Shown here: positions 10,392 through 40,724 of the stretch, in pieces | Layout of the letters: the number at the start of each line of letters is the position of its first letter | Position numbering within the stretch: position 1 is the stretch's first letter | Assembly (NCBI GenBank): GCA_022799355.1 | Contig: JAAWOG010000001.1 | Location: 1 to 64,000, forward strand | From: Lachnospiraceae bacterium | Lineage (GTDB): Bacteria; Bacillota; Clostridia; Lachnospirales; Lachnospiraceae | DNA: 64,000 nt | Direction: 5' to 3' | Notes under the pieces: model-generated | What the model was told of the DNA's origin: nothing | Databases searched by the model: none | Seen by the model: the letters and a program-made list of their open reading frames with translations, nothing else | Position numbers and translations under genes: made by a program

Positions 10392-12278
10392 CTATTCCTT
10401 ATCCCGCTCAGCCAGCAATTTCATGGGCTCTTTTTTCAGGCTTCTGTTTATCCTGTAAAGCGCGATTCCCGCGCCCGCAGCCGTAATCGCCGCAGCACAG
10501 CCGGCGGCAAGAAGCCACTGATCTTCCATCCGCACCTCATCCACCGCAACTTCCTTTGTCACATGGACCGCCCCTGCCGTATATGCCGTGTCGAAATAAG
10601 ATTTGCCTGCATTCTCCGCAGATACCCCGGCGGCTGCCACCGCCCCTGCGGCGCAGCCCAAAATACTGCCTGAAAGGACCAGCAGGACAAACCCGGACAG
10701 TATGGACCACCTGCACTGCATAACGTTCATCCCGAGGGAGCGTTCTATCGCTGTCCGCTTCGACTGTTTTGTGATAAACAGATGGCTGAAAAAAGAAAGA
10801 AGCAGTCCCGCGAGAAGGATGCCCGACACCAGCAGAAGATAAGAAAGATTCCTCATATCATCCATTCCCGCCTTCAATGCGGAATATCCCATATCGTAAA
10901 ACGTAAATTCCAGATCTTCCATATCGCATTGGGACCAGCCCAGTAAAAATTCTTCTATCGTTCCGTTGGGAATCCGAAACGACGCGTTCCTGTCCGACAT
11001 GGGCCCGATATCCATCAGATTATTTTCGTCTCCCGCCTCAATGGACTTCATCGGCACGATCAGCTCATCCGAACCGGAAGTATAAGTGTTGACGGCGTCC
11101 ATGTTTTCCGATACCGTATCGTAAATCCCTACAACCGTATATTCCGAAGTCTCAAAAGGCTCAAGCGTCTCCCCATTCTCATCAATATAAGACGCACTGG
11201 CAGAAAAGGAACCTTCCAGCCAGAAATCCCTTCCCGCATTCTTCCTTCCATTGGTAAACAGAAGCCGCACGGTAACGTTATCCCCCAGCACAAGCCCGTT
11301 GTTTTCCATAAAAACCTTCGGCGCAAGACAGACCTTACTTCCCGCCTCATATTCCTCCCGGCTGATATCTCTCCCTTCCGTGATAAAAGAATCCCCGTTA
11401 TAAAAAGGCATCAAAAGACAAGTCTCGTTCGTCCCTGTCACCGGCTGAATATCATATCCCCATTCCATGGTCTCTATAATAGAGAGAAGCCTGCGCCCGG
11501 CATCCGTCTCATAAAACCCATCCGTCAGCTCAAAAATTTCCTGTCCGTCCCTGAACATATCCTCTGCCGCTCTTCCGTCCGGATAAAAAATCTCCGACGC
11601 CAGCGTATCAGGAATATACTCCAGATCAATCCTGGGTTCTCCCATCCCCGCTTCCTGATACGCCCGCTCCAATGCCGTCCCGTGAATATAGAGATAACTC
11701 ACAAGCGCTGCCACATACGTTTTATCCTGATACAGTTTTTCCGGCTCCGGATTTCTGTGGTCGCAGAACCATATCACATTATCCGTAAGCCTCTTGTCCC
11801 CGCCGACTACCTTTGATATTTTAATCTGAACGGATTCATCCGGCACGCAATCCTCCAGCGGTGAAAACTCCGCGATCACAAAGGATGTCTTTACCCTGTC
11901 AGGATTCTGGCTTTTCCACAGCTTGACATACTCCGGCGTATAAGAACCATAATAAGCCCTTTTTTCCGGTCCCGACACATACCGAGCCCCCGGAAAATCC
12001 AGTTCCTCCACCGTCCGGTAAGAAGTAAACTGCTCCTTCTTTATCAGTTGATAGCTTTTCTGCTCAGCGTCCCATTGCAGCTTCTGTTCAAAGGCTCTCG
12101 GTACCTGCCGCACGGTAGCTATAGTGATAAAGCGGTCCTCATACTCCGCCATGGTCCTGTAACTTTTCAGCCAGATGGAAGCGCCCAGGGTTATCAACAG
12201 CGCCGCAAAAAATGTAAGTACCAGAAACAGAACTGTCTTTACCGGAGTCCGCAGCATTTGTTTCAGACTGTTCTTCAT
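10392..12278 (-). CDS. FtsX/MacB-type ABC transporter permease
   Basis: 628 residues from the ATG at 12278, which overlaps the ATPase stop as ATGA. There is one N-terminal membrane segment (about 15-38), a large extracytoplasmic region (about 40-480), and three C-terminal membrane segments: near SYLLLVSGILLAGLLLSFF, WSILSGFVLLVLSG and WLLAAGCAAAITAAG. This is the MacB/LolE plan of mechanotransmission exporters, which move peptides or lipids or sense antibiotics. Substrate cannot be told. It forms one operon with the ATPase and the second permease; no two-component genes are beside it. Confidence 0.82.
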   Translation of the reverse strand: MKNSLKQMLRTPVKTVLFLVLTFFAALLITLGASIWLKSYRTMAEYEDRFITIATVRQVPRAFEQKLQWDAEQKSYQLIKKEQFTSYRTVEELDFPGARYVSGPEKRAYYGSYTPEYVKLWKSQNPDRVKTSFVIAEFSPLEDCVPDESVQIKISKVVGGDKRLTDNVIWFCDHRNPEPEKLYQDKTYVAALVSYLYIHGTALERAYQEAGMGEPRIDLEYIPDTLASEIFYPDGRAAEDMFRDGQEIFELTDGFYETDAGRRLLSIIETMEWGYDIQPVTGTNETCLLMPFYNGDSFITEGRDISREEYEAGSKVCLAPKVFMENNGLVLGDNVTVRLLFTNGRKNAGRDFWLEGSFSASASYIDENGETLEPFETSEYTVVGIYDTVSENMDAVNTYTSGSDELIVPMKSIEAGDENNLMDIGPMSDRNASFRIPNGTIEEFLLGWSQCDMEDLEFTFYDMGYSALKAGMDDMRNLSYLLLVSGILLAGLLLSFFSHLFITKQSKRTAIERSLGMNVMQCRWSILSGFVLLVLSGSILGCAAGAVAAAGVSAENAGKSYFDTAYTAGAVHVTKEVAVDEVRMEDQWLLAAGCAAAITAAGAGIALYRINRSLKKEPMKLLAERDKE

Positions 12279-34802: not shown

Positions 34803-35144
34803 CTACAGAAGATACGTCGGCAGTTCACAGTAAATACGGCTTACCGCCTCAAACTTCTTCTCATGAATATCATCGGAGGAAATGACAGAAGCCGCCACTA
34901 CCGTCTCCGGTTTCTTTGCCGGCACTTTTTTAACCGTTTTTTTAGCAGGTGCCGCTTTCTTTTTCGGCGCCGCCTTTGCAGTCTTCACCGTTTTCTCAGG
35001 CACTGTTTTTACCGCTGCTTCCTTTCCTTCCGCATCTGCCATATCCTTTGTTTCCTTCTGTTCCATATCCGCCGCCTCCACTATCTCTTCTTTTTTTCCC
35101 TTCGCTTTCGCTGCTCTCTGAATACTGCCCTTCCCTACCGACAT
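34803..35144 (-). CDS. Lysine/alanine-rich small protein encoded with ParA
   Basis: 113 residues starting 10 bases inside the end of parA, so the two are coupled. The middle (about 45-80) has histone H1-like Lys/Ala/Pro repeats (TAKAAPKKKAAPAKKTVKK), which suggests non-specific DNA binding. The tail is SRIYCELPTYLL. No known family was recognised. By position it could be the DNA-binding partner of the ParA ATPase, in place of ParB. That role is inferred. Confidence 0.7.
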   Translation of the reverse strand: MSVGKGSIQRAAKAKGKKEEIVEAADMEQKETKDMADAEGKEAAVKTVPEKTVKTAKAAPKKKAAPAKKTVKKVPAKKPETVVAASVISSDDIHEKKFEAVSRIYCELPTYLL

Positions 35145-35923
35145 AATTGAATGACCTCCTTTGCCAACTCATAATATTCTTTTGCGCTTCTGCTGCTTTT
35201 TTTATACACAAGGACAGGACTCGAATCATCCTGCGCCCATTCTATCGCGCTGTCCACATGAATATAATTCTCAAACACCTTTACATCATCCAGTTCCTTT
35301 AACGTCTCCAGTGTCTGCCTGAAATAGTTTTTCCGCTCGTCCACCTTTGTGACGGCAATGCCGAGAAGCTGAAGATCCGGCGCGATCTCCTCCGCCCCGC
35401 CCAGAAACTCAAACATATTTGCCAGCCCAAAAAGCCCCCAGGGACTCGATTCCACCGGAATCACCATCTTATCCGAAGCACAGAGTATATTCATCACCCA
35501 GCCCCCCAGCGTCGGCGGCGCATCGATCAGGATAAAATCATAGCCGCCCGATTCTTTTATGCCCTTTAACGCCTTTCTCAAAATAAACTCCCGCTGCCAC
35601 TTCGCGAACAGTTCATACTCTATGGAACTCATCAGTGTGGAGGAGGGGATGATATCCAGATTATCATACCCTGTGGGCACAATAAAATCCTGCAGATCCT
35701 GCTGGTTTTTCATGGCAATGTACAGGTTTTTCTCCCCCTTAGCCATCTCCAGCACCTCCTCCTCTCCAAAGAAGGACAAAGACAGATTGAGCTGCATATC
35801 GCCGTCGATCAGCAGCACCTTATATCCCAGAAGCGATATCGCATATCCTATATTGGAACAGGACGTGCTCTTACCGCTTCCCCCTTTGTTGTTACAAAAA
35901 CATATGGTTGTTGTCTTTTTCAT
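35135..35923 (-). CDS. ParA/Soj-family ATPase
   Basis: 262 residues. The deviant Walker A CNNKGGSGKST has the signature lysine, the second box is VLLIDGDMQLNLS and the third is FILIDAPPTL. It is a P-loop partition ATPase that dimerises on DNA. No parB gene or parS site was seen; the next gene codes for a lysine-rich protein. It is a stand-alone chromosomal orphan ParA that could position another cargo. AAAGGATTATCAT precedes the ATG. Confidence 0.88.
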   Translation of the reverse strand: MKKTTTICFCNNKGGSGKSTSCSNIGYAISLLGYKVLLIDGDMQLNLSLSFFGEEEVLEMAKGEKNLYIAMKNQQDLQDFIVPTGYDNLDIIPSSTLMSSIEYELFAKWQREFILRKALKGIKESGGYDFILIDAPPTLGGWVMNILCASDKMVIPVESSPWGLFGLANMFEFLGGAEEIAPDLQLLGIAVTKVDERKNYFRQTLETLKELDDVKVFENYIHVDSAIEWAQDDSSPVLVYKKSSRSAKEYYELAKEVIQLCR

Positions 35924-36152
35924 ATGATAATCCTTTATCCCTGCCGCAAAGCTTTTTCCGTGCGCCCCGCTCCTGTCACATTAACCGATCACCGGACTCG
36001 CCCGGTAATGCCTGTAATATCAGTATACGTTCAACCGCAGGACATGTCCAGAAGAAAATTTTGCGCTAAAAATGTCGTATTTCAGGTTTCTTTTCTTTTC
36101 CTTTAGATTTTCTTAATAAAAGAAATTTTTCTTTTAGATTCCTGCCACACTT

Positions 36153-36180
36153 TTGACACATTTACCATTTATTATAATAA
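36153..36180 (+). promoter_or_regulatory. Promoter of the candidate small RNA
   Basis: TTGACA (36153-36158) with TAATAA at 36175-36180 (16-bp spacer). It points away from parA into a region without a plus-strand gene. Confidence 0.55.
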
Positions 36181-36186
36181 ACATAG

Positions 36187-36332
36187 AGCAGGACACAAAC
36201 CTACCGATACTACCCCACCTTCCTTGTGAAGACTTCGGAATGGTTCCTGCATCTATTACACTTTTCATATCTCCCCCTTGTTTTAAAAGTAAATAAAACG
36301 CCCTGGCGAGTGAGCCGGGGCGTTTTATTTTG
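36187..36332 (+). ncRNA. Candidate structured small RNA with C-rich anti-ribosome-site motifs
   Basis: A consensus-like promoter, about 145 bases without a coding frame, and a strong terminator. From the predicted start, nested short stems can be drawn: CAGG (36189) with CCTG (36246), AACC (36198) with GGTT (36242), CCGA (36204) with TCGG (36235) and CTTC (36219) with GAAG (36228). CTACCCCACC and TCTCCCCCTTG stay unpaired and are complementary to AAGGGGGA/AGGAGG-type ribosome sites. C-rich loops of this kind mark base-pairing sRNAs of Firmicutes such as RsaE/RoxS. The class is not identified. Confidence 0.5.
36295..36326. terminator. Bidirectional terminator
   Basis: Perfect 9-bp stem AAAACGCCC/GGGCGTTTT with an inner CC/GG extension. 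TTTTATTTT follows on the plus strand, TTTTATTTACTTTT on the minus strand. It ends the candidate small RNA and metI. Confidence 0.8.
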
Positions 36333-36406
36333 TCCACTCCATATATCTTACAGGCTATGCCGTATTATCCCGAGTCCTGATCTTAACAATTACGCCGTTT
36401 TTCTCT

Positions 36407-37069
36407 TTACCGGTTTCTCTTATCCATCTTCTTTGATATCTTCGTCCCGATATACTGCATAATCTGTACCAGCAAAATCAGCAGCACCACCGTAACCATC
36501 ATAATACCCACCTGATAACGGTGATACCCGTAGCGGATTGCAACGTCGCCAAGGCCGCCGCCGCCCACCGCGCCGGACATGGCGGAATAACCAAGGATCG
36601 TCGCAAGGGCAATGGTCCCGCCCACGATCAGAGATACTCTCGCCTCCGCTAAAAGCACTTTCCACACAATATGCCAGACACCCGCGCCCATGCTCTGCGC
36701 CGCCTCGATCACACCTTTATCCACCTCCAGAAGGGAAGACTCTACCATCCTTGCGATAAAAGGCGCTGCTGCAATCGTCAGAGGCACGATCGTCGCCGTC
36801 GGCCCATAACTCTTTCCCACGATCAGCTTTGTAAAGGGCATCAGCATAATCAGCAGAATGATAAACGGTACGCTCCTCACAATATTTACAATAAAATCCA
36901 GTATCTTATAAATAACCGGATTCGGCTTTAAACCATCCTTTGCCGTCAGCACCAGCGCTATCCCCATCGGCAGCCCGATCACATAGGCAAGCGCCGTGGA
37001 AGAAAGCGTCATATAGATCGTGATCCATGTCTCTTTTGCCAGCATGGAAATATTCTGTACATCCCACAT
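36407..37069 (-). CDS. metI: Methionine-type ABC transporter permease MetI
   Basis: 220 residues from MWDVQNISMLAKETW (ATG 37069). Five membrane segments, with the MetI start ETWITIYMTLSSTALAYVIGLP and the EAA loop VIEAAQSMGAGVWHIVWKVLLAEA. It pairs with the MetN ATPase to import methionine or a related amino acid. It has its own promoter and is separated from metN by a lysin gene. No MetQ binding protein gene is present in the window. Confidence 0.92.
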   Translation of the reverse strand: MWDVQNISMLAKETWITIYMTLSSTALAYVIGLPMGIALVLTAKDGLKPNPVIYKILDFIVNIVRSVPFIILLIMLMPFTKLIVGKSYGPTATIVPLTIAAAPFIARMVESSLLEVDKGVIEAAQSMGAGVWHIVWKVLLAEARVSLIVGGTIALATILGYSAMSGAVGGGGLGDVAIRYGYHRYQVGIMMVTVVLLILLVQIMQYIGTKISKKMDKRNR

Positions 37070-37206
37070 AATCTTATCTTCTCCTTTGTCCTTTCCTTTA
37101 TTCCATTCTTCCTGCTCATGCACTTATCTCATCACAATCATTCCTGTCATGAACCTGCGGCAAAAGCCGTCCTTTGACAATACGGCCTTTTTGCTGCCAC
37201 TAAAAT

Positions 37207-37265: not shown

Positions 37266-38276
37266 TCAATTATAGAAAGCCGCCTGTATACTGTTGTAGC
37301 CAGCGATTCCGTCCGCCGACAGATTCAGCCGCTTCTGCAGTGCTATGGTCGCCGCCCTTGCCGCTCTGCCGTATTTGCCGTCCACCGCCTGGCTTCTCCC
37401 AAGTATCTCATTGCACCTGCGCTGCCACCATCTCACCACCTGCCCCACCGATCCCGTCACATAGGTTTCACCGGATCTTTTGGCTTTTAAAAAAATCTGC
37501 CTGCGCACATACTGCGTCTCCGGACCATCGATACCGTCCACCGCCAGCGCCCTTCCCTGTCTGTCCCGATATCCGTCAGCATTTGCCGCCTCCTGAAATT
37601 CCGCTATATTGATATTGGGGCGCTTTATGATCTCTCCTTCCGCCTCCGTATCTTCCGAAAAGTCCGTATAAAACCTGTTGATATCCACACTGCCCTTTAC
37701 ACCGGGTACCCTGCCCTTCGATGTATACTGCCAGATATCAATATCCGCTTCCTTCTCCGGCAGCACCGATCGATAACGCGCGTACCAGACATACACCTTC
37801 CCCAGTTCCTCAGCAAGATACCTCATATCAAAATAATTTTGCAGATAGTCCCTGTTTGCATAAAGTACCGGAATATATCCCGCTTCCCTGACACGCTTCA
37901 AAAACGCCGCCGCCATCTCCGTACACAACCCCTTTGTGACCGACACACCGTTTTTTCTCGCATAATTGACGGAGGCATACTCAAAATCATATGCGATAGG
38001 GCACTTTCTCCAATATTTCGCCGCCTGCGCTATGGCGTAACCGGCTTCCGCCGCCGCCATCTCCTTTGTATAAGCATACGAAAACCAGTACAGCAGTACA
38101 TCCACACCAAGGTTATAACATGCCAGCGCATTGGAAATATACCTCTCATCCACATTGTCCCTGCCGTATCCTGCCCGGATTCCTATCCGCCTGTAACCGG
38201 CATCCCGCACCCGCTTTATATCCACGGCCCCGTTGTGTATTGAAATATCCGGCCCTTCATACAAAACACTTTTCAT
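37266..38276 (-). CDS. GH25 lysozyme-like muramidase with C-terminal peptidoglycan-binding domain
   Basis: 336 residues from MKSVLYEGPDISIHNG (ATG 38276, AGGAAGG upstream). The GH25 barrel covers about 6-195: GPDIS start, AYDFEYA with the catalytic Asp-x-Glu pair, and DIDIWQYTSKG with DINRF at the end. The last 90 residues look like a PG_binding_1 domain (RWWQRRCNEILG...DGKYGRAARAATIALQKRLNL). There is no signal peptide, as in phage-type endolysins. It lies between metN and metI with a terminator before it, so it is not part of that operon in a strict sense. Confidence 0.87.
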   Translation of the reverse strand: MKSVLYEGPDISIHNGAVDIKRVRDAGYRRIGIRAGYGRDNVDERYISNALACYNLGVDVLLYWFSYAYTKEMAAAEAGYAIAQAAKYWRKCPIAYDFEYASVNYARKNGVSVTKGLCTEMAAAFLKRVREAGYIPVLYANRDYLQNYFDMRYLAEELGKVYVWYARYRSVLPEKEADIDIWQYTSKGRVPGVKGSVDINRFYTDFSEDTEAEGEIIKRPNINIAEFQEAANADGYRDRQGRALAVDGIDGPETQYVRRQIFLKAKRSGETYVTGSVGQVVRWWQRRCNEILGRSQAVDGKYGRAARAATIALQKRLNLSADGIAGYNSIQAAFYN

Positions 38277-38377
38277 AACCTTCCTTTCCGCCTGCCGGCG
38301 TTCAGAACAGTTCCTTCTTCTATTCCTATGCCGCCGCAGACAAAAATAGTATATGAATTTTTCAGGACATATAAAAA

Positions 38378-38412
38378 ACACCGGAAGCTGTCAGATACAA
38401 CTCTTCCGGTGT
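38378..38412 (-). terminator. metN terminator
   Basis: Perfect 10-bp stem ACACCGGAAG/CTTCCGGTGT, followed on the minus strand by a TTTTTTAT tract, 40 bases after the metN stop. Confidence 0.85.
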
Positions 38413-38451: not shown

Positions 38452-39471
38452 TCAACCCACATAATCTTCCAGGATCTGAACCTCCAGCCTTCTCTCCCGC
38501 AGATATTCTATCATCCGGCTCGCGATCATCTCTTCCTCCGGAAGCTGCAAAATCATCTGCCCATGAGCAATCCCGCCGATGTCCTTCGTATCCGCCAGCA
38601 GAATATTTGCCGGCGCCTTGCACTCCAGGATCATATTGCCGATCACAGGCTCAAAAGAAGAATTTTCCGAAAAGACAATGCGGATGCATTTCTTTCCGTG
38701 CATCAGACTGTAATCTTTGCTGCTGCCCTGATAGATCAGCTTTTTCCCCGCCTTTGTTTTGGGATGGGAGAAAACCTCTTCCACCGTACCGGTCTCCGCC
38801 AGACTTCCCTGATCGATGATAGCCACATGAGTACATATCTCCTGCACCACCGCCATCTCATGGGTAATGATGACCATCGTAATCCCGAATCTCCGATTAA
38901 TATCTTTCAAAAGCGCAAGGATCGACTTTGTGGTGGTCGGATCTAAAGCACTGGTCGCCTCGTCGCAGAGCAGTATCTTCGGCTCCATGGCAAGCGCCCT
39001 GGCAATCGCCACCCGCTGTTTTTGTCCGCCGGAAAGCTGCGCAGGATAAGCCTTCGCCTTCTCCTCTAAATCCACGATCTTCAAAAGTTCCGCCGCTTTT
39101 TCTCTCGCCTTCTTTTTCGGCACTCCCACGATCTCCAGAGGAAAACAGATATTATCCAGCACCGTCCGCTGCATCAGCAGATTGAAATGCTGGAAAATCA
39201 TGGCTATCTTTGTTCTGAGCTTCCGCAGCTCCTCCTCGCTCATCTCAGAAAGGTCATGCTCTTCGATGCAGACCGTTCCCGTAGTCGGCCGCTCCAGAAA
39301 ATTCAGGCATCTCACCAGCGTACTCTTCCCGGCGCCGCTCATCCCGATAATACCGTATATTTCTCCTTTATGAATTTCCAGATCAATATGGTCAAGGGCA
39401 TTTACCACAGCATCCTTCGTCTCAAAGCTCTTGCTCACATCTTTTACCGAAATCATTGTCTCTTCGTACAT
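38452..39471 (-). CDS. metN: Methionine-type ABC transporter ATPase MetN
   Basis: 339 residues from MYEETMISVKDV (ATG 39471 with GGAG 6 bases upstream; a start 12 bases earlier is also open). Walker A GMSGAGKST, signature LSGGQKQRVAIARAL, Walker B ILLCDEATSAL and the H-loop ITHEM are intact. The C-terminal NIL domain (about 265-339, from IRIVFSENSSFEPVI) is the regulatory substrate-binding part of methionine transporters. Its operon is cut short by a terminator. Confidence 0.93.
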   Translation of the reverse strand: MYEETMISVKDVSKSFETKDAVVNALDHIDLEIHKGEIYGIIGMSGAGKSTLVRCLNFLERPTTGTVCIEEHDLSEMSEEELRKLRTKIAMIFQHFNLLMQRTVLDNICFPLEIVGVPKKKAREKAAELLKIVDLEEKAKAYPAQLSGGQKQRVAIARALAMEPKILLCDEATSALDPTTTKSILALLKDINRRFGITMVIITHEMAVVQEICTHVAIIDQGSLAETGTVEEVFSHPKTKAGKKLIYQGSSKDYSLMHGKKCIRIVFSENSSFEPVIGNMILECKAPANILLADTKDIGGIAHGQMILQLPEEEMIASRMIEYLRERRLEVQILEDYVG

Positions 39472-39508
39472 CTTTTTCTCCATTTCTGCGCTGCTTTATT
39501 GCATAAAG

Positions 39509-39788: not shown

Positions 39789-40724
39789 ATGAGCAAGAAA
39801 AAAGTTGTCGTTTCTCTCGGCCATAAAGCCCTCGGCTACACTACGCTTGAACAGCTTGACGCCGTAAAGAAAACCGCGAAAGCGCTGGCGGATCTCGTGG
39901 AAGCCGACTGCCAGCTTACGATCACCCACAGCAACGGACCACAGGTCAGCATGATCCATAAAGCCATGACCGAACTGCGCCGGGTTTACATCGATTATAC
40001 ACCGGCTCCCATGAGCGTCTGCTCCGCCATGAGCCAGGGCTACGTGGGCTATGATATTCAGAACGCCCTCCGCTCGGAACTGCTCGGCAGAGGCATCTCC
40101 AAACCTGTCAGCACGATTCTGACGCAGGTAACGGTAGATCCTTACGACGAAGCCTTCTACGCACCCACCAAAAAAATCGGGCGTTATATGTCCCGGGATG
40201 ACGCGGATATTGAAATCAAAAAGGGAAACTATGTGGCGGAAGAACCCGGCAGAGGCTTTCTGCGTGTCGTTGCCGCGCCGAAGCCCATTGATATTGTAGA
40301 AATCGACGCCATCAGAACCCTCGTAAATGCCGGCCAGATCGTTATCGCCTGCGGCGGCGGCGGTATTCCCGTGATCCGTCAGAATCACAACTTAAAAGGC
40401 GCTTCCGCCGTCATCGAAAAGGATGCCATCGCCGGAAAACTGGCTTCGGAACTTCACGCCGACGTGCTGCTGATCCTTACCGGCGTTCCCGCCGTATATA
40501 CCGCTTTCCAAACTGACCGGCAGGCTCCTATTTCTCAGATGAACAGGGAAGAAGCCAAAGCCTATATCGCAAAAGGCGAATTTGAAGAGACAACCATGCT
40601 GCCGAAGATTGAGGCAGCCATCTCCTATCTGGAGAGCAACCCTGACGGAAAGGTGATCATCACTTCCATGGAATGTGTGAAGGATGCCATTCGTGGAAAG
40701 TCAGGGACGGTGATTGTCGCATAG
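39789..40724 (+). CDS. arcC: Carbamate kinase
   Basis: 311 residues, AGGAGAGG before the ATG. Amino-acid-kinase fold; typical motifs THSNGPQVSMI, CGGGGIPVI and HADVLLILTGVPAVY. It makes ATP from carbamoyl phosphate in arginine, agmatine or purine-derived ureido breakdown. It is alone here, without arcA or arcB. Between it and metN (39623-39788) I see only a possible TTGATA-17-ATTATA promoter. Confidence 0.93.
   Translation: MSKKKVVVSLGHKALGYTTLEQLDAVKKTAKALADLVEADCQLTITHSNGPQVSMIHKAMTELRRVYIDYTPAPMSVCSAMSQGYVGYDIQNALRSELLGRGISKPVSTILTQVTVDPYDEAFYAPTKKIGRYMSRDDADIEIKKGNYVAEEPGRGFLRVVAAPKPIDIVEIDAIRTLVNAGQIVIACGGGGIPVIRQNHNLKGASAVIEKDAIAGKLASELHADVLLILTGVPAVYTAFQTDRQAPISQMNREEAKAYIAKGEFEETTMLPKIEAAISYLESNPDGKVIITSMECVKDAIRGKSGTVIVA

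Follow-up and report, generated by a model that had tools for sequence, protein, structure and literature searches.

The csRNAs of the streptococcal CiaRH regulon have an unpaired anti-Shine-Dalgarno (anti-SD) and anti-AUG region between two stem-loops, and their promoters carry NTTAAG-N5-TTTAAG ten nucleotides before the -10, as described in excerpts of PMC3091779. C-rich regions also direct the RoxS/RsaE RNAs to ribosome-binding sites, and ResD, a regulator of the OmpR type, activates RoxS (excerpts of PMC4409812). For the Lachnospiraceae, literature searches found no description of a base-pairing sRNA family. The start-site study of Clostridium phytofermentans names, in the excerpts available, only non-coding RNAs known to Rfam (PMC5171806). 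The sRNA reported here is of a known kind, and its family appears to be new, barring overlap with the 3161 candidate structured RNAs from human microbiomes that are reported in excerpts of PMC8040213.

The window analysed is a stretch of 64,000 nucleotides from the genome of a Lachnospiraceae bacterium (contig JAAWOG010000001.1, positions 1 to 64,000). Positions 36183-36332 of its plus strand look like a real, conserved small regulatory RNA gene, a reading that a preliminary description had put forward as a candidate and that sequence comparison supports well. The product is probably a free-standing, trans-acting, non-coding sRNA of about 150 nt, which would repress through ribosome-binding sites and form one branch, type W, of a Lachnospiraceae-wide family. 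Rfam 15 yields no match at gathering score in the window, in keeping with the earlier failure to place the RNA in a known class. The sequence does contain the two C-rich motifs and the terminator hairpin noted previously, together with promoter-like hexamers, and the non-coding plus-strand stretch does end in a strong terminator. The features are the following (type A is a related sRNA type treated below):

36097-36145, plus strand: A/T-rich upstream region (TTCTTAATAAAAGAAATTTTTCTTTTAGATT), resembling the type-A upstream consensus TTCTTAAGAAATTTTCgTTTTCTTTTAGA
36146-36163, plus strand: promoter element, an 11-bp direct repeat CACACTTT-N3-CACATTT over the -35 place
36170-36175, plus strand: -10 element TATTAT (TATDAT in relatives), at a fixed distance to the repeat
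36183-36332, plus strand: sRNA, with its start predicted near 36183 (36182-36185) from the distance to the -10 and a conserved ATAGA
36183-36255, plus strand: 5' hairpin domain, a long bulged stem that folds in 11 of 11 homologues
36210-36219, plus strand: C-rich loop motif CTACCCCACC; five diverged members likewise have CCCC in their hairpin loop
36256-36285, plus strand: linker with TTTTCATATCTCCCCCTTG (36262-36280), antisense to a ribosome-binding site and start codon
36291-36332, plus strand: intrinsic terminator with a 17-bp stem, from sequence reading and fold

The sRNA has the plus strand to itself in the gap between two minus-strand genes, which encode a ParA-like ATPase (35135-35923, Pfam AAA_31) and a methionine-type ABC permease (36407-37123, named by eye from its translation); the next plausible plus-strand gene, carbamate-kinase-like by eye, begins at 39789. 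By sequence reading, the terminator stem (36291-36330) is strong and bidirectional; usable on both strands, it also ends the minus-strand ABC-transporter gene. A scan for consensus promoters and terminators lists neither the sRNA promoter nor the plus-strand terminator. Further along the minus strand, a gene for a GH25 lysozyme with a peptidoglycan-binding domain (37266-38381) lies between two genes that are methionine-transporter-like by eye (36407-37123 and 38452-39483, both on the minus strand).

Transcript 36186-36335 folds at -45.8 kcal/mol, compared with -29.1 +/- 3.3 kcal/mol for dinucleotide shuffles (z -5.1, 0/200), an excess of which a large share is due to the terminator. The four nested stems drawn previously are approximately right: the fold has one outer stem and two or three inner stems with bulges, followed by the terminator. 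The 5' hairpin loop holds CUACCCCACC, and the second C-rich motif, TCTCCCCCTTG, is read at 36270-36280. Both motifs had been described as unpaired; in the ensemble, the CCCCC of the linker is open (P about 1.0) and so is TACCC of the loop (P 0.80-0.99), but the adjacent CAC of the loop is open at only P 0.30-0.39. The linker string CATATCTCCCCC, kept in all nine genus members, is mostly open (P 0.55-1.0); the linker UUUU is predicted to be paired in the window (P open about 0.1), which counts against the preferred reading.

A DNA search of 61 genomes finds the sRNA in all nine genomes of the genus (G000-G008) and gives short marginal matches in two of the 52 others. Across the nine, the linker is invariant at 26 of 30 positions and the promoter repeat region (36145-36169) at 18 of 25; the 5' hairpin is invariant at 13 of 73 positions in the aligned genus genomes. 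Despite this drift, the hairpin folds in all 11 homologues, that is, the nine genus members and SIG336 and RUI337, and the 5' domain alone gives z -2.0 to -5.7 against mononucleotide shuffles in each of them, with at most 7 of 300 shuffles equalling it. SIG336 and RUI337 come from more distant Lachnospiraceae and keep the promoter element, the 5' hairpin with its CCCC loop, the near-invariant linker and the terminator. The preliminary description had made its reading depend on the conservation of stems and C-rich loops in relatives, and these are retained throughout the nine genus genomes, SIG336 and RUI337.

Stem evolution was followed mainly by reading single-sequence folds. In such folds, the outer stem has G-C, G-C and A-U in the window versus A-U, A-U and G-C in G001 (5' positions 6, 10 and 11 from ATAGA), and the inner stems of G003, SIG336 and RUI337 are almost wholly different in sequence and present the same kind of loop with CUACCCC. 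The best fold of RUI337 has a shifted outer stem, the homologous one being 2.5 kcal/mol worse. RNAalifold on a MAFFT alignment of the six closest sequences gives no formal covariation (0 of 39 pairs with a two-sided change), and cognate duplex energies of the hairpin arms are modestly better than swapped ones, some swapped pairs being equally strong. G001 and G003 have terminators of unrelated sequence, replaced yet kept in kind, and G007 has an insertion ahead of its terminator. Neighbouring genes vary while the sRNA stays: the ParA-like gene is kept in G001, and other genes are found at the G007 and G003 loci. At about 300-380 of the G007 locus (L076, contig C20), 3' of the terminator hairpin, GCTTTTTACTTATGAGGGGG perfectly complements CCCCCTCATAAGTAAAAAGC of the sRNA itself, and read-through RNA there could hide the C-rich patch.

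Beyond the genus, a pattern scan for CATATCTCCCC(N)TTRTTTTA over 84,980 species genomes (genome_contigs collection) returns 21 stretches, of which, by reading, 11 are the sRNA (two from assembly SIG338) and 10 are chance. By their titles, several of the 11 are in Lachnospiraceae, including Bacterium 1XD8-76 and A24, and one is labelled [Clostridium] symbiosum. The sequence-only model R1 matches 51 of 397 Lachnospiraceae genomes at E <= 0.01, strongly only in three (G000, G007, G267).

Many of the weaker R1 matches represent another sRNA type, type A, which has the window's promoter followed by the hairpin SL1, GAUAGUUGA...UCAACUAUC, and then UCUCCCCCCUCAUAA; some inspected matches (for example, L031, L033, L034 and L087) lack the type-A hairpin. 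A model of promoter, 9-bp SL1 and C-rich linker (R2), built from 20 R1 matches picked by pattern, matches 173 of the 397 Lachnospiraceae genomes, from 152 of 334 genera, the lowest E being 3.5e-15. Type A is often multi-copy, with four R2 matches each in G023, G136, G145, G327 and G371, and the window's own genome has a compact copy at C92:16315-16393. Rfam gives no match at gathering score in 17 loci (15 around R1 matches, most of them type A, and the type-W loci L054 and L064), and the large type-A family is apparently uncatalogued. In type A, two of nine pairs show a two-sided change (4 cells; reached by 8 of 500 shuffles, whose mean is 1.7), which gives weak support for stem covariation among 20 sequences that were preselected by a pattern fixing the promoter and the C-rich run. 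At L077 (G327:C1:255000-262000), three type-A copies lie within about 4 kb near genes that are ATP-synthase-like by eye; every copy has a second stem, along with a conserved 3' string, TTTACTCTCATTCCTTTAGATAACTATAAC, that is itself antisense to AAAGGAATGAG.

Type A is not convincingly found outside the Lachnospiraceae in the class and order samples. R2 matches 12 of the 391 genomes of the class sample, of which just two are not Lachnospiraceae; their E values, 0.005 and 0.009, are of the level that chance gives over 391 genomes. In the order sample 40 of 325 match, only four of them outside the family (E 0.001-0.009, three from one genus). The marginal matches in G901, G856 and G937, which belong to one genus of family f8 in the same order (E 0.001-0.004), may be distant members or chance. 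Among viral contigs, CTATCTCCCCC(N)TCATAA occurs in 11, of which, by reading, only L150 has the promoter and SL1, the other 10 being chance. The L150 copy at 10800 (IMGVR_UViG_2639762926_000002) is a complete-looking type-A sRNA on a contig filed as viral, either prophage cargo or host flank.

Types A and W have in common the promoter and a UAUCUCCCCC...AAAGUAAA core, their hairpins differ, and we infer that they are of common descent. In place of the type-A SL1 GAUAG...CUAUC followed by UCUCCCCC(C)UCAUAA, the window has another hairpin and UCAUAUCUCCCCCUUG. Because its hairpin is different and R2 matches it only weakly (E 0.0017), the window sRNA represents a related type and is not a type-A member.

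The plus-strand promoter of the preliminary description is present and is conserved, but it is not of the ordinary kind that was assumed: an 11-bp direct repeat lies over the -35 place. TTGACA occurs at 36153-36158, with a perfect TATAAT 14 bp away and the conserved -10 TATDAT 11 bp after TTGACA; thus, TTGACA is not an ordinary -35. Two CACAnTTT units spaced 11 bp occupy the position expected for a -35. Promoters that depend on an activator of the OmpR/PhoB type or similar are built this way, and the conserved repeat suggests that this promoter, too, is activator-driven. The same arrangement is seen in 49 distinct type-A promoters, in which the element CAYAnTTTnGACACATTT is followed by a TATNNT -10 fixed at 11 bp after TTNGACA, an invariance that is partly due to selection since these promoters came from models trained on such promoters.

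Farther upstream, the window is alignable down to L008 (from 36097) and to L054 and L009 (from 36102). In 25 of the 49 type-A promoters, a TTAAG-N6-TTAAG repeat with no more than one mismatch precedes the CACA element by about 44 nt, as opposed to an average of 0.7 and at most 3 in 200 shuffles; if a second mismatch is allowed, 39 have the repeat, 33 of them at one fixed position. The window keeps the general upstream sequence but lacks this repeat. The Spo0A box is TGTCRAA. Base N of TTTNGACA is G or A in 43 of the 49 type-A promoters, whose other strand reads TGTCYAA; therefore, a canonical Spo0A box is not favoured for type A. The TGTCAAA of the window would fit the box.

Recurrent neighbours at the 49 loci are genes for a GH25 lysozyme (eight, one of them in the window), an OmpR-type response regulator (seven) and a Spo0A_C-domain protein (six). 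The best NCBIfam profile for the regulators is VanR-ABDEGLN, at about 285 bits versus a cut-off of 350, so they are VanR-like but not VanR. A survey covered 66 selected genomes from the Lachnospiraceae, class and order samples, 48 R2-positive and 18 R2-negative. A close ortholog of the regulator (at least 72% identity, the next group being at 63% and below) occurs in 44 of the R2-positive versus 6 of the R2-negative genomes (Fisher p 4e-6, uncorrected for relatedness), and 16 of the 44 orthologs lie within 2.5 kb of a type-A sRNA. Spo0A_C matches occur in 47 versus 13 (p 0.005, also uncorrected), and in 10 of the 48 R2-positive genomes a type-A sRNA is preceded, 73-179 nt upstream and on the same strand, by a solitary Spo0A_C gene. 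These ten are G354, G195, G348, G117, G398, G187, G337, G067, G156 and G293, and the protein has about 116 aa. G415 and G117 contain 12 and 9 Spo0A_C matches, respectively, an unusual expansion of lone Spo0A DNA-binding domains. An OmpR/VanR-like regulator gene adjoins the type-A sRNA at L112, L120 (divergent) and L122 (downstream), with a membrane-protein or kinase-like gene behind it.

The window's genus lacks a close ortholog of the OmpR/VanR-like regulator (best 60%); given this and the uncorrected relatedness, the link between regulator genes and sRNAs is suggestive only. Our guess is that the activator is an OmpR/VanR-like regulator or a Spo0A-type protein, the genes of which often flank type-A copies. 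It is possible, if doubtful, that the sRNA superfamily serves as the RNA output layer of a signalling module linked to the envelope or to sporulation, a clostridial counterpart, of independent origin, to CiaRH and its csRNAs; the parts proposed are an OmpR/VanR-like two-component system and the solitary Spo0A DNA-binding-domain protein, with the GH25 lysozyme at some loci.

The linker UUUUCAUAUCUCCCCCUUG is the complement of CAAGGGGGAGAUAUGAAAA, that is, of a Shine-Dalgarno sequence plus start codon, and the near-invariant linker is antisense to AAGGGGGAGAUAUGAAAA. Pairing of the sRNA with G-rich ribosome-binding sites would fit best. A response-regulator-type activator would turn the promoter on, and the two open C-rich patches could pair with the G-rich Shine-Dalgarno sequences of several mRNAs, the linker pairing additionally with the start codon; such pairing may block ribosome binding and favour mRNA decay, as with the csRNAs and RoxS/RsaE.

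A search of the window's own genome for targets of the GGGGGAG type, as proposed earlier, confirms that G-rich sites exist, but none stands out. With 38 sites for AAGGGGGA-N2-9-ATG and 15 for the pattern reversed, the genome does offer plausible landing sites. The linker complement AACAAGGGGGAGATATGA has two sites in this genome with at most three mismatches, one of which is the sRNA gene; as no second site fits well, no clear target emerges. RGGGGGAGATA has seven sites, one in the window sRNA and one in the genome's own type-A sRNA, and the other five were set aside as targets, having by reading no fitting start codon. When 30 of the 38 sites are ranked by duplex energy, the best-looking true gene starts, judged by eye, belong to a xylose-isomerase-like protein (L190), an 83-aa protein with AAAGGGGGAGCGATATGAAAG (L165) and a LacI-type regulator (L164). 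They are not claimed as targets, because many of the 30 sites look like in-gene chance matches.

That no target stands out would suit a sponge or decoy, the C-rich patches of which bind G-rich RNAs or a protein and do not repress translation, and there is precedent, a RoxS sponge being reportedly known in Bacillus subtilis; however, the invariant linker carries CAU, an anti-AUG, at the usual distance from its anti-SD, a feature for which a sponge would have no need, and this reading is decidedly unlikely. On the minus strand, a small protein or short leader peptide (MKSVIDAGT...) would have its ribosome-binding site and start in TAAAACAAGGGGGAGATATGAAAAGTGTA. Its SD, spacing and ATG are perfect and the first 12 or so codons are alike in the closest relatives, but the frame is open for only five codons in G003 and for about 19 in G004, G005 and G008, and it is shifted in the window, while it is the plus-strand promoter element and hairpin that are conserved instead; a peptide is thus extremely improbable.

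A cis-acting leader, an attenuator or a mere terminator region, with no separate RNA, is very unlikely as well: the RNA does sit in an intergenic gap and its terminator can serve the minus-strand transporter gene, but no plus-strand gene follows for 3.4 kb, and the element stays, with its own promoter conserved, where its neighbours change (G001, G007, G003). As to the promoter, constitutive transcription by sigma-A from TTGACA and TATAAT, with no activator, is unlikely, even though both hexamers are perfect in the window: they are 14 bp apart, the 49 type-A promoters keep the 11 bp from TTNGACA to the -10 and the whole repeat rather than just the hexamer, and 25 of the 49 have TTAAG-N6-TTAAG upstream. 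The preferred reading is thus a trans-acting sRNA, directed at ribosome-binding sites and made from an activator-driven promoter. Lachnospiraceae are dominant gut bacteria, for which an sRNA family that is absent from Rfam, often multi-copy and equipped with a common activator-type promoter provides a concrete entry point that comes with candidate regulators, a defined seed, a covariance model and, in 1XD8-76, a named strain.

SurA sRNA (RF02377) has a sub-threshold match over the CCCC stretch and the terminator and was rejected: it reaches 22.8 bits where the gathering score is 100, and the 279-nt model is mostly deleted. RsaE/RoxS (RF01820), a family whose activation involves ResD/SrrA and Rex, has in common with the window sRNA the C-rich anti-ribosome-binding-site regions, the string UCCCCYUUGUUU and a terminator, whereas neither the hairpin nor the second C-rich region aligns; membership was rejected at 31.9 bits (E 0.002) versus a gathering score of 79. 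The csRNAs, in so far as the excerpts describe them, resemble the window sRNA in layout. In both, an unpaired region between two stem-loops is complementary to a Shine-Dalgarno sequence and start codon (CAU as anti-AUG), related copies occur in one genome, and the promoter has an 11-bp direct repeat instead of a -35. The differences are that the position of NTTAAG-N5-TTTAAG holds CACAnTTT-N3-CACATTT here, that TTAAG-N6-TTAAG lies further upstream in type A and is missing in the window, that the hairpin bears a second C-rich loop, and that the host family is another one. By reading, the CiaR box NTTAAG-N5-TTTAAG about 10 nt before the -10 is absent from window positions 36080-36170, and with no CiaR box at the right place csRNA membership was rejected. 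If the preferred reading is true, a C-rich anti-ribosome-binding-site sRNA under a response regulator is a design that recurs in another lineage.
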